NCBI RefSeq assembly: GCF_000980895.1
Contig: NZ_LAZX01000094.1
Span: 992,001 to 1,056,000, forward strand
Direction: 5' to 3'
Length of the DNA stretch: 64,000 nt
Origin: Sphingomonas sp. Ag1
GTDB taxonomy: Bacteria; Pseudomonadota; Alphaproteobacteria; Sphingomonadales; Sphingomonadaceae
In this document: one piece after another, positions 1 through 4,419 of the stretch
How the letters are laid out: each line of letters begins with the position of its first letter
How positions within the stretch are numbered: position 1 is the first letter of the stretch
Program-made: the position numbers and the translations under genes
The notes under the pieces: model-generated
Told to the model about the DNA's origin: nothing
Database searches by the model: none
The model's input: only the letters and a program-made list of their open reading frames with translations

Positions 1-1432
1 TGCCGAACAGCGCGGCCGAGGTGTTCTTGAAGCCGATCGTGTTGCGCGAGGTCAGCCCGTTCAGCACCGCCGGATTGCACGCGGCGGTCGTCGGCGTGGC
101 GCAGCCATTGGGGCCGAAGGGCGGATTGCCGGGATTGAGCAGGAAGCGGCTGGCCGCCGACCCTTGTGACTGAAGCCCCTGCGTGTCGATCGTCTGGTAG
201 AAGTAAAATGCGCCCACCGTATAATCGACCGGCCCCTTCGTATCCGAGGCGTAGCGGATCTCCTGCGTGAACTGGCTCTGCTGCGACGGGTTGGCCGAAA
301 CAGGGGTGATCGGCAGCCCGATGAAGTCGCGGTCGTTGGATGGGTTCCAGTGCCAGAAGCGCCACGCGGTGACCGAGGTCAGCGTGCCCGAGCCGAGCGT
401 CCAATTGGCCAGCGCCGATGCGCCGCCAAGCTCCTGCTCGGCGCGCAGATCGGTATCGACGTCGGTCAATCGGTCAAAGGCGTTGGTCGACGGCGGCGCA
501 TAGCCGAAGGCGGCGGAGAGGGCGGCGAACTGCCGGCTGACCGGGCGCTGCGTCGTCCCTACCCGCGCATAATATTGCACGCAGCAATTGGGGTTCTGGC
601 GGTTGTAGTCGGCGAACAAGGTGACATCGAGGTCAGGGCTGGCGCGAAACAGCATCTGGCCGCGCAGCCCGACATTGTCCTGGCTGTTCTGCCATTCGCG
701 CTGGAGCGTGTTGTACACCGTGCCGCGCCGCGTGGTGATCGAGCCGGAGATGCGGGCGGCGACCACATCGGCGACGATCGGCCCGGACACCGAGAACTTG
801 CCCTGGAAGAATTCGTAATTGCCGCCGCTCACCTCGACCCGGGCCTCGGGATCGAAGCTGGGCCGGCGGGTGGTGATGTTGATCGCGCCGGCGGTCGTGT
901 TCTTGCCGTACAGCGTCCCCTGCGGGCCGCGCAGGATCTCGATCCGTTCGGTGTCGGTGAAGTCGAACGTCGCAGAGGCGATGCGGCTGTAATAGACTTG
1001 GTCGACATAGATGCCGACGCCCTGCTCGATCCCGTCGTTGGTCAGGCCGAACGGCGCGCCGAGCCCGCGGATGTTGGCCGCCGAGTTGCGCGGATTGGTC
1101 GAATAGAATTGCAGCGTGGGCTGAAGCTGGGTCAGGCGATTGACGTTATAGGCGCCCGTTTCCGCCAACGCCTCACCCCCGATCACCGACATGGCGATTG
1201 GCACGCTTTGCACCGTTTCGGCGCGGCGCCGCGCGGTGACCACGATGTCGCCGCCGCCCTGCTGCGCGGGGCCGAGCCGCCCCGCCGCCCCCGTCTCCGT
1301 CTCCGGCACTGATGCAGGGTCCTGATCCGCGGCCGGCGCCGGTGACTGTCCCTGTGCCGTTTGCGTCACGCTTTCGGATGGAGAAGCGGCCGGAGCGGCC
1401 AACAGGATGGCAAGCGTAATCGACATCGACAT
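1..1432 (-). CDS. TonB-dependent receptor, N-terminal part (runs off the left edge)
   Basis: This is an outer-membrane active-transport receptor that uses TonB energy; the substrate is unknown. About 477 codons are visible, starting at ATG 1432 behind an AGGGGA ribosome site. A short hydrophobic leader (MSMSITLAILLAAPAAS) is followed by a low-complexity linker, then a TonB-box-like stretch (DIVVTARRRAET), then the plug domain with AANIRGLG, IEILRGPQGTLYGKN and TAGAINITTRRP. The first beta-barrel strands follow. The IEILRGPQGTLYGKNTTAGAI-type plug is typical of the large sphingomonad TonB receptor family, often used for plant or aromatic compounds, but nothing here fixes the ligand. The C-terminal barrel lies outside the window. 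An inverted repeat sits just upstream of the start. Confidence 0.93.
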   Translation of the reverse strand, partial: MSMSITLAILLAAPAASPSESVTQTAQGQSPAPAADQDPASVPETETGAAGRLGPAQQGGGDIVVTARRRAETVQSVPIAMSVIGGEALAETGAYNVNRLTQLQPTLQFYSTNPRNSAANIRGLGAPFGLTNDGIEQGVGIYVDQVYYSRIASATFDFTDTERIEILRGPQGTLYGKNTTAGAINITTRRPSFDPEARVEVSGGNYEFFQGKFSVSGPIVADVVAARISGSITTRRGTVYNTLQREWQNSQDNVGLRGQMLFRASPDLDVTLFADYNRQNPNCCVQYYARVGTTQRPVSRQFAALSAAFGYAPPSTNAFDRLTDVDTDLRAEQELGGASALANWTLGSGTLTSVTAWRFWHWNPSNDRDFIGLPITPVSANPSQQSQFTQEIRYASDTKGPVDYTVGAFYFYQTIDTQGLQSQGSAASRFLLNPGNPPFGPNGCATPTTAACNPAVLNGLTSRNTIGFKNTSAALFG

Positions 1433-1444
1433 CGTCCCCTGAAC

Positions 1445-1467
1445 TGTTGATGCAACGTCCATCAACA
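1445..1467. promoter_or_regulatory. Perfect inverted repeat upstream of the TonB receptor (possible operator)
   Basis: TGTTGATG and CATCAACA form two perfect 8-base arms around a 7-base spacer. The repeat ends 13 bases before the receptor start codon and just upstream of its ribosome site. It could be a repressor operator or a hairpin in the leader; no regulator gene for it is visible nearby. Confidence 0.4.
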
Positions 1468-1516
1468 AAGTGGGGATTGCAATACCCGATCAACTTAGAG
1501 GGATTTTGAGAGGCCT

Positions 1517-1541
1517 CTTGAAATATGTCTTGACCTTACCA
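1517..1541 (+). promoter_or_regulatory. Putative RpoH (heat shock sigma) promoter of hsp20
   Basis: CTTGAAA at 1517-1523 matches the heat-shock -35 element. CCTTACC at 1534-1540 is a plausible -10 of the alphaproteobacterial RpoH type after 10 bases. Transcription would start near 1548 and give a leader of about 90 nt, which fits the length of a ROSE leader. Confidence 0.45.
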
Positions 1542-1570
1542 GATTTCCTCCGTGCGGCGCCGATGCCGGG

Positions 1571-1639
1571 CCGTACAGACGGTGGCGCGACGCTGGTCGT
1601 GCGCCTCCGCTTTCAACTCGCTCATTGGAGGAATTGAAG
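1571..1639 (+). promoter_or_regulatory. ROSE-like RNA thermometer in the hsp20 leader
   Basis: Three consecutive hairpins can be drawn. CCGT/ACGG spans 1571-1582. GGCGC+GAC pairs with GTC+GCGCC across 1584-1605. The last hairpin spans 1614-1636 and traps the Shine-Dalgarno sequence: CAA 1614-1616 pairs with UUG 1634-1636, UC 1618-1619 with GA 1631-1632, G1620 is bulged, and CUC 1621-1623 pairs with GAG 1628-1630 around an AUUG loop. The motif UCGCU (1618-1622) facing AGGA is the signature U(U/C)GCU of ROSE elements, which melt at high temperature to allow translation of small heat-shock proteins. Confidence 0.7.
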
Positions 1640-2107
1640 ATGCGTCTTGACCTTACCCCCTACCGCCGTTCGACCATCGGCTTCGACCGGCTGTTTGACT
1701 TGATCGAAACCAACGCCCGCAATGCGAGCGACAATTATCCCCCCTTCAACCTCGAGCGCGTCGCTGATGATCGCTACCGGATCACGCTTGCCGTGGCCGG
1801 CTTCTCTCGCGACGAGATCGAGATCACGGCACAGCAGAACCTGCTGCTGGTGTCCGGCAAGAAGGACGACAAGGCCACTGGCCCGAACTTCCTCCATGTC
1901 GGCATTGCCACCCGCAGCTTCGAACGCCGGTTCGAACTGGCGGACTTCGTCTTTGTCGAGGACGCTCGGCTGAACGACGGTCTGCTGGTGATCGACCTGG
2001 TGCGCGAAGTGCCTGAGGCGATGAAGCCCAAGAGCATCGCCATCAAGACCGGCCAGAAGCCGACGGTCGTCGAGGACAAGTCCGGCGAGACCGCGCAGGC
2101 CGCGTAA
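1640..2107 (+). CDS. Small heat shock protein, Hsp20/IbpA family
   Basis: This 155-residue alpha-crystallin chaperone holds unfolding proteins in the cytoplasm. The first residues MRLDLTPYRRSTIGFDRLFD match the class A (IbpA/HspH) N-terminus with its FDRLFD motif. The alpha-crystallin domain covers about residues 35-125 and contains GLLVIDL. The C-terminal I-x-I anchor (SIAI) is near residue 137, and the tail is short and polar. ATG 1640 was chosen over the TTG at 1625 because GGAGGA at 1627-1632 sits 7 bases upstream of it. Control appears to be double: an RpoH-like promoter and a ROSE-type thermometer. Transcribed alone, it converges with the Nudix gene. Confidence 0.93.
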   Translation: MRLDLTPYRRSTIGFDRLFDLIETNARNASDNYPPFNLERVADDRYRITLAVAGFSRDEIEITAQQNLLLVSGKKDDKATGPNFLHVGIATRSFERRFELADFVFVEDARLNDGLLVIDLVREVPEAMKPKSIAIKTGQKPTVVEDKSGETAQAA

Positions 2108-2213: not shown

Positions 2214-2792
2214 TCAATCCAGCGGCGCGGCCCAGTGTTGCGGCAGCGCCATGGCGAGCGCGGCAACGTGCATTGCGTGTACGATCGCGCCGCTGCGCGC
2301 CTGCGCGATTACCTCCGCCACCGGCCTGATCGACAGGCGTAGCCGCTCGGTCGGCTCGTCCACCGGTTCGGCCAGCCGGCGAACGCCCGTGGCGAGAACG
2401 GTGTGGCAGCGGTTCGCCTGAGTCGCGGGATTGGGCGCGAGCGTCGCGGCCAGCCGCCACGCGCCGCCGCCAAAGCCGGTTTCCTCCAGCAATTCGCGCT
2501 GGCCAGCGGCGATCGGGTCCGCGTCCTCGGGATCGATCGCGCCGGTCGGCAGCTCGCGCGAGGTGACGCCCCAGCCGTGGCGATATTGATCGACCAGCAG
2601 CAGGTCGCCCGCCTCGTCCAGCGCGACCACGATCACCCAATCGGGATATTCGGTGACGAAGAAGGGCGCGATCCGCACCCCCTCCGCCGTCACGCAATCA
2701 TCGGCGCGCACCCGCAGCCAGCGGTCATCGACCACCAGCCGCGATGCCTCGACCCGCCATGCCGGCAGGTCGCCCTCGCGCGTGTCAGACAA
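2214..2792 (-). CDS. Nudix hydrolase (ADP-sugar pyrophosphatase-like)
   Basis: A 192-residue Nudix protein that probably hydrolyses nucleoside diphosphate derivatives such as ADP-ribose. The Nudix box lies in the middle of the chain: G before IDPED, then [10 protein letters not shown], matching the GX5EX7REUXEEXGU pattern apart from a small insertion in the first loop. Upstream of it, [20 protein letters not shown] is the usual ADP-ribose pyrophosphatase strand pair. The gene follows pyrG on the same strand and its start overlaps the pyrG end by 8 bases, so the two are likely co-translated. The substrate cannot be assigned from sequence. Confidence 0.85.
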
Positions 2793-4419
2793 GCCGGCTC
2801 TGCTTCACCGCCGCGGCGATGAAGCTGGCGAACAGCGGATGCGGATCGAACGGCTTGGACTTCAGCTCCGGGTGGAACTGGACGCCGACGAACCAGGGGT
2901 GGTCGGGCCGCTCGACGATCTCGGGCAAGGTGCCGTCGGGCGACATGCCGGAGAACACCAGGCCGCCCTTTTCCAGCGGTTCCTTATAAGCCGTGTTCAC
3001 TTCGTAACGGTGGCGGTGACGCTCGTAGATCGTCGTGTCGCCATAGATGGAGGCGACGACGCTGTTGCCGGCGAGCTTCGCCTCATAGGCGCCAAGCCGC
3101 ATCGTGCCGCCCAGATCGCCCTCGGCCTCGCGCTTCTCCAGCCCGTCGCGGCCCATCCATTCGGTGATCAGGCCAACCACCGGCTCGGTCGTGGGGCCGA
3201 ATTCGGTCGAGGAGGCTTCCTTGATCCCGGCCAGATCGCGCGCGCCCTCGACGCACGCCATCTGCATGCCGAAGCAGATGCCGAGATAGGGAATCTCGCG
3301 CTCGCGAGCGAAGCGCACGCTGGCGATCTTGCCTTCCGCGCCGCGCTCACCGAAGGCGCCGGGCACCAGGATCGCGTCGCACGGCTCGAGCTGCGCGGCG
3401 ATTTCCGCGTCGTCATTCTCGAACAGCTCGGCGTCGATCCAGTTGATGTTGACCTTCACCCGGTTGGCGATGCCGCCATGGACCAGCGCCTCGTTAAGCG
3501 ACTTGTACGCATCCTGCAGGCCGACATATTTGCCGACCACGCCGATCGTGACCTCGCCTTCCGGATTGGTCAGGCGATCGACAATCTCGGTCCAGCGCGA
3601 CAGGTCCGGCGCGGAGGACGGGGTGATGCCGAAGGCGCGGAGCACCTCGGTATCCAGCCCCTCGCCATGATATTGCAGCGGCACGGCATAGATGCTCTTC
3701 GCATCGAGCGCCGGGATGACCGCGGTTTCGGGCACGTTGCAGAACAGCGCGATCTTGGCGCGATCCGACGGCGGCAGCGGCTTTTCACAGCGGCAGACCA
3801 GAACGTCGGGCTGCACGCCCAGCGCCGCGAGCTCGCGCACCGAATGCTGCGTCGGCTTCGTCTTCAGCTCTCCGGCGGCGGCGATGTATGGCACCAGCGT
3901 GACATGGACGCTGATCGCATTACCGCGGCCAACCTCGTTCTTCAGCTGGCGAATCGCCTCGATGAACGGCAGCGACTCGATGTCGCCGACCGTCCCGCCG
4001 ATTTCGCACAGCACGAAATCGAGGTCGTCGGTCTGGTCCTTGGCGAATGCCTTGATCGCATCGGTGACGTGCGGGATCACCTGCACCGTTGCACCCAGAT
4101 AATCGCCGCGCCGCTCGCGGGCGATGATCTGCTGATAGATGCGGCCGGACGTAACGTTGTCGCTCTGCCGCGCCGCGACGCCGGTAAAGCGTTCATAATG
4201 GCCAAGATCGAGGTCGGTCTCCGCCCCGTCGTCGGTGACGTACACCTCGCCATGCTGGTACGGGCTCATCGTGCCCGGATCGACGTTCAGATAGGGATCG
4301 AACTTGCGGATCCGCACGCGATAGCCGCGCGCCTGAAGCAATGCGGCGAGGCTCGCCGCCATGAGACCCTTGCCGAGCGAGGAGACCACGCCGCCGGTGA
4401 TGAAAATAAACCGCGCCAT
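2785..4419 (-). CDS. pyrG: CTP synthase
   Basis: Makes CTP from UTP, ATP and glutamine, the last step of de novo pyrimidine synthesis. The 544-residue length is normal. The N-terminal synthase domain begins [18 protein letters not shown] (UTP/ATP loop) and contains [20 protein letters not shown]. The C-terminal class I glutaminase domain has the nucleophile in YLGICFGMQ and the partner His/Glu in [11 protein letters not shown] near the end. secG lies 85 bases upstream on the same strand and the Nudix gene overlaps downstream, so a secG-pyrG-nudix transcription unit is likely. Confidence 0.97.

Follow-up and report, generated by a model that had tools for sequence, protein, structure and literature searches.

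A probable ROSE-type RNA thermometer in the leader of the ibpA-like hsp20 gene of Sphingomonas sp. Ag1

The small heat-shock gene hsp20 of Sphingomonas sp. Ag1 probably carries a ROSE-type RNA thermometer in its ibpA-like leader, transcribed from an RpoH-type heat-shock promoter; we put the probability of this reading at roughly 0.87. Its folding very probably keeps the ribosome-binding site out of reach until heat. Our window is a stretch of 64,000 nucleotides of this genome (3.93 Mb in total), and all coordinates refer to it unless a locus is named. Within positions 1517 to 1642, a promoter-like pair of elements (1517–1544) is followed by three hairpins, and a reading frame of 155 residues opens at 1640. 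ROSE elements are thermometers of rhizobial small heat-shock genes, as in ROSE1 of Bradyrhizobium hspA, and form the Rfam family RF00435. The ROSE-type identity of the leader, proposed in a first-pass annotation made from the letters alone, is supported by a full-length match to RF00435, by covariation among related leaders, and by the promoter. It offers an explanation of how this Sphingomonas is likely to control the production of its small heat-shock protein.

The reading frame (1640–2107, forward strand) encodes an IbpA-like small heat-shock protein that matches the Pfam HSP20 family with 61.3 bits. Its best NCBIfam match is IbpA, at 155.4 bits against that model's cut-off of 212, and it is 51% identical to Escherichia coli IbpA over 133 aligned positions. 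As named relatives we used the best 80 of 462 relatives of the gene, the titles of which are nearly all Sphingomonas, with few other names; the closest among them are a Sphingomonas metagenome bin, with 99% protein identity, and S. jeddahensis, with 93%.

Upstream of the leader, a −35 element CTTGAA (1517–1522, forward strand) is followed after 16 bases by a −10 element CCAGAT (1539–1544, forward strand). The combination CTTGAA-N13..18-CCANAT occurs once in the window, counting both strands, where 0.06 occurrences are expected, and is present in 6 of 100 shuffles. Both elements recur in related genes: CTTGAA lies 90 to 145 bases 5' of the start codon in 75 of the best 80 of 462 relatives, and 69 of these 75 have CC[AG]NNT at a spacing of exactly 16. 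Spacings from 12 to 18 were searched for this −10 pattern; C, C and T are demanded by the pattern itself, and the third base is A in all 69. The other six CTTGAA-bearing relatives have near −10 forms by eye. The accessible part of PMC4843759 gives the RpoH1 consensus as CTTGAA-N15-16-CCTATAT. The window agrees with its −35 element and spacer, while CCAGAT has the CC start and AT in common with the −10 heptamer, not the whole of it. The genome encodes RpoH (364.8 bits, cut-off 323.1). The earlier proposal of an RpoH-like promoter is thus borne out by the sequence and its conservation, and RpoH presumably uses it. A transcript starting 6 to 9 bases past the −10 element would begin at hairpin I.

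Folding predicts three hairpins in the leader, as the annotation had read by eye: hairpin I at 1552–1576, with the likely transcript start nearby, hairpin II at 1581–1605, and hairpin III, the presumed heat-sensing stem, at 1611–1639 (with a predicted extension to 1608–1644). Hairpin III contains the Shine-Dalgarno sequence GGAGGA (1627–1632), which ends 7 bases 5' of the ATG at 1640, and opposite to it the motif UCGCU (1618–1622), which aligns with the UUGCU and unpaired G of the ROSE consensus. In the predicted fold, UCGCU faces AGGA (1629–1632) through the pairs U1622-A1629, C1621-G1630, C1619-G1631 and U1618-A1632, leaving G1620 bulged; both the burial of GGAGGA by a stem with a bulged G and the pairing of 1618–1622 with 1629–1632 had been claimed before, and the predicted stem reproduces them exactly. 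The loop has four bases and is closed by C1623-G1628, U1622-A1629 and C1621-G1630; in the predicted stem, the Shine-Dalgarno bases G1628 to A1632 all have a partner. Below the motif comes a C1617·A1633 mismatch, followed by pairs from A1616-U1634 down to U1611·G1639. The leader therefore shows the hallmark of ROSE elements, U(U/C)GCU facing the ribosome-binding site in the 3' hairpin, its G left unpaired, and the gene that follows at once encodes a small heat-shock protein.

Taken by itself, folding energy says little for structure here, being barely above chance. The whole leader has a z score of −1.79, with 10 of 200 shuffles equally stable, and hairpin III has a z score of −1.47, with 14 of 200. 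Nearest-neighbour melting with ViennaRNA showed no opening of hairpin III at 20 to 50 degrees. The leader of E. coli ibpA is a validated thermometer, and it stays closed in the same computation, so that such melting decides nothing about the window; across 85 leaders it was likewise uninformative.

Covariance models gave a clearer picture. The annotation had named the absence of any covariance-model score as evidence against a thermometer, and that case fails: in a 501-base search, RF00435 matched positions 1553–1646 of the forward strand with 41.3 bits (E = 6.9e-5), aligning model positions 1–94 of 94 and reaching past the hsp20 start. As this score lies below the gathering score of 45 bits, searching the window at default settings yields no hit. 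In the whole 3.93-Mb genome, the leader is the sole RF00435 match at E ≤ 10 (E = 1.3e-4; 150 of 266 first-look candidates scored). Matches at E ≤ 10 were found in 3 of 14 control genomes, none of them above the cut-off, and at E ≤ 0.1 in none of the 14. A search of 100 genomes with stricter filters, our own genome included, gave 42 matches at E ≤ 0.1, distributed over 38 genomes, and 40 of these lie directly before an hsp20 gene. A match in G041 (L186:1044–1149, reverse strand, 35 bits) lies before a 56-residue frame that is not hsp20, is missed by our own model described below, and is probably due to chance; a weak match in G035 away from hsp20, with no frame longer than 15 residues starting in the stretch inspected, was also taken as chance. 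Fifteen matches, from 14 genomes, exceed the cut-off, all before hsp20 genes of a second group whose products are 54 to 63% identical to the window protein. Among the leaders of the best 80 of 462 relatives, none reaches the cut-off (the top score is 44.7 bits), and 44 are listed at E ≤ 5. These leaders thus form a group of orthologous ROSE-type elements that is likely to go unannotated because it lies below the Rfam cut-off.

To compare leaders across the genus, we aligned by sequence only 48 leaders of orthologous hsp20 genes, the window included (alignment A1). The 100-genome search for this set gave no match in eight genomes, five of the genus (G012, G015, G029, G033, G047) and three of the order (G065, G088, G097). 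These eight contributed no leader to A1, and neither did G026, with a split match, or G007, G018, G024, G034 and G058, with second-group hsp20 genes only. Of the 50 leaders of the first group, two shortened ones, L032 and L062, were left out. The consensus fold of A1 comprises hairpins I and II and just three loop-side pairs of hairpin III, 20 pairs altogether, 16 of which show two-sided changes. When the outer part of hairpin III is taken over from the window's own fold, the resulting 27 pairs have 89.6% of their cells paired, and 21 of them show two-sided changes. In each of 500 shuffles, all five measures fall short of the observed values, and six slid controls, with partners moved by one to three columns, give at most 48.7% paired cells. 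The comparison of sphingomonad hsp20 leaders that the annotation had suggested thus reveals a common structure, with compensatory changes that are strongest in hairpins I and II. In the helix of hairpin I, 95.1% of cells are paired and 8 of 10 pairs change on both sides; in hairpin II, all seven pairs of the family consensus do so, the window's exact pairs differing slightly from that consensus. The two helices of hairpin III have 85.6% and 84.4% of cells paired, and the pair beside the motif (columns 115–135) is non-standard in 27 of the 48 leaders, that of the window among them. Hairpins I and II thus carry most of the covariation, and hairpin III is kept mainly by sequence, namely the Shine-Dalgarno sequence and the motif.

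We also built a covariance model, R1, from the 48 leaders of A1. Genome-wide, it gives the window leader, itself a seed member, 73.2 bits, the next place having 18.6 (150 of 8217 candidates scored). All leaders of the best 80 of 462 relatives match, with 34.9 to 89.9 bits, many of them coming from the same species as the seed or close ones. Outside the seed, R1 finds the leaders of the second hsp20 group at 15 of 15 loci (L033–L046 and L188). From 36 genomes of other genera of the order with a match, 21 leaders were taken; R1 recovers 20 of them at E ≤ 10 and 16 at E < 0.01. Over the 100 genomes, our own included, it yields, at E ≤ 0.1, 70 matches spread over 61 genomes. In 68 cases hsp20 follows directly; the other two, in G008 and G049 (E = 0.045 and 0.084), score weakly and were taken as chance. 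R1 places the E. coli ibpA and ibpB leaders correctly, with 21.4 and 20.0 bits, a control that is suggestive only because a stray match in L043 scores about the same, at 21.0 bits. The genome holds a second, distant Hsp20-like frame (L002), which is 26% identical over residues 42–135; R1 has no match there, and RF00435 gave nothing elsewhere in the genome among the 150 of 266 first-look candidates scored. Three leaders, L032 (1390–1500), L062 (190–300) and L179, are shortened: their CTTGAA lies 96, 93 and 94 bases before the start, and the R1 matches span 69 to 72 bases. By eye, L032 and L062 are without hairpin II and resemble the two-hairpin form of Pseudomonas.

Set beside known systems, the window leader is a somewhat diverged member of a known thermometer type. 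Like RF00435 elements, it has several hairpins over a 94-position alignment and lies before hsp20, and its last hairpin pairs the Shine-Dalgarno sequence with U(U/C)GCU and an unpaired G. It differs from them in its score, with none of the 80 leaders (best 80 of 462) passing the cut-off, and in the surroundings of the bulged G, which is flanked by two C-G pairs with no U·G wobble and with a C·A mismatch adjoining. The short ROSE-like thermometers of Pseudomonas ibpA have the same last hairpin before the same kind of gene and are shortened as L032 and L062 are; yet the accessible part of PMC3669281 gives them two hairpins, against three in the window. ROSE-G elements, as far as they are described in the available text of PMC12857270, likewise have two C-G pairs beside the bulged G. 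Unlike the window leader, they carry CUGCU, have another bulged G on the Shine-Dalgarno side and are reported to precede ABC transporter genes; the window leader has UCGCU, with U1618-A1632 and C1619-G1631 paired and G1620 alone bulged, and so falls outside ROSE-G.

By analogy with validated ROSE elements, translation of hsp20 would be temperature-gated. On heating, RpoH would raise hsp20 transcription, and the leader would fold into the three hairpins, the last pairing UCGCU with the Shine-Dalgarno sequence in a stem weakened by the bulged G and the C·A mismatch. At growth temperature, the Shine-Dalgarno sequence would stay paired and ribosomes would be kept off; at heat-shock temperature, the stem would open and translation start. 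The same analogy suggests that hairpin III melts in the physiological range, with an effect on translation.

Three other explanations of the leader deserve consideration. It may serve mainly as a binding site for the small heat-shock protein, which would thereby repress translation of its own mRNA, heat drawing the protein to aggregates, an arrangement that could act together with melting. E. coli IbpA does repress its own translation via its 5' leader, and Arg93 is essential for this; Tyr34 matters too, as do the basic residues at 97 and 98 (PMC10474464, in the text available). Y34, R93, R97 and K98 of E. coli IbpA correspond to Y33, R92, R96 and R97 of the window protein, and the same four letters (Y, R, R, R) stand in all of the best 80 of 462 relatives, while E. 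coli IbpB has F, Q, L and S. The same source notes R93 and Y34 in alphaproteobacteria and takes them to suggest conserved self-suppression. The residues by themselves do not prove function: most of them belong to the conserved alpha-crystallin domain, where something other than self-repression may preserve them. The window locus resembles the E. coli system in its ibpA-like gene and its IbpA-type residues, but self-repression was demonstrated for gammaproteobacterial proteins only (PMC10474464, same text). Moreover, self-repression leaves the bulged-G stem unexplained, whereas melting explains it. We therefore regard self-repression as the main role of the leader as possible though rather unlikely; going by its residues, the protein may add a second layer of control, compatible with a thermometer and no substitute for it.

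Control might also reside in RpoH transcription alone, with the leader merely a stable 5' structure that might, for instance, help to stabilise the mRNA. Transcription can carry a heat response, since after heat shock the mRNA of an Hsp20 family gene of S. melonis TY rises 1,857-fold and the protein 11-fold (PMC10434288, in the part available), figures that agree with a strong contribution of transcription. S. melonis AS2.3 has two such hsp20 genes, 50.7 and 52.2% identical to IbpA, and either may correspond to the TY Hsp17 (50.00% identical to IbpA in that part of PMC10434288). Yet control by transcription alone does not account for the conserved stem in which UNGCU, with its G unpaired, pairs with the ribosome site, and we consider it improbable. 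That the hairpins are chance structures of a GC-rich leader would fit the only slightly unusual folding energy, but the covariation and the gene-adjacent covariance-model matches leave this next to no probability. The most probable reading is thus still that of a ROSE-type thermometer behind an RpoH-type promoter.

The motif itself varies among these leaders. The annotation had treated U(U/C)GCU as the mark of ROSE elements; this holds for the UCGCU of the window, but UAGCU in 15 of the best 80 of 462 relatives stands outside the rule. In full, these 80 leaders have UCGCU in 59, UAGCU in 15, UUGCU in 5 and ACGCU in 1, where L109 and L116 were reset by eye from UCGCU to UAGCU (the loop contains a second copy) and L173, counted as UCGCU, is doubtful. 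On the gene tree of the 80, the UAGCU leaders sit in two adjacent clades, one with 6 of them and the other with 9; 8 of the 48 A1 leaders have this motif. For another ROSE-like element, the accessible part of PMC11342760 reports that removal of the bulged G makes heat induction notably lower, that changing UUGCU to UCGCU lowers it little, and that stronger pairs after the motif abolish it. UCGCU is thus expected to work, since the change to it does little in that element.

In A1, the base before the motif is A in 0 of 20 UCGCU leaders and in 8 of 8 UAGCU leaders. An energy compensation, in which a weak central pair is offset by flanking A-U, was considered and rejected: UCGCU does follow A in a few of the best 80 of 462 relatives, and the 80-gene tree offers three independent contrasts on well supported branches (four on all), with no consistent direction. 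The idea is unsupported because the tree gives too few independent cases. Folded alone, the short 3' stretches have −4.5 kcal/mol in the UAGCU leaders L122 and L125 and −6.9 in the window leader, and all three lie within the range of their shuffles (69, 50 and 36 of 200 fold equally well, respectively). A regulatory role of UAGCU is thus without support from energy, as UAGCU stems fold no better than shuffles. Nevertheless, we offer as a speculative proposal that sphingomonad hsp20 leaders belong to a divergent subclass of ROSE that can do without the pyrimidine; UAGCU, with an A opposite the Shine-Dalgarno guanine beside the bulged G, may then still regulate, and the small heat-shock protein might bind the same leader, one RNA sensing both temperature and chaperone level. 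Species with UAGCU bear on the strictness of the ROSE motif, and the conserved IbpA residues bear on self-repression by alphaproteobacterial IbpA. Our literature search, which covered mainly open-access papers, found nothing closer to a UAGCU-type ROSE thermometer than a paper on thiouridine thermodynamics, and no report of a sphingomonad RNA thermometer or ROSE element, although earlier predictions of the latter may well exist.

Some minor features of the locus complete the description. The sequence GTCTTGACCTTACC is present twice, at 1527–1540 in the promoter spacer and at 1644–1657 in the first hsp20 codons, and two copies occur in 0 of 100 shuffles. The promoter of the closest relative (L102) is without an exact copy, so that two conserved stretches probably agree here by coincidence. 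The hsp20 gene and a divergent frame at 2–1468 (reverse strand), which runs off the window and by eye encodes a TonB-dependent receptor, have their intergenic stretch in common. Downstream and convergent to hsp20 lie a gene for a NUDIX protein (2214–2792, reverse strand) and the CTP synthase gene pyrG (2785–4419, reverse strand).
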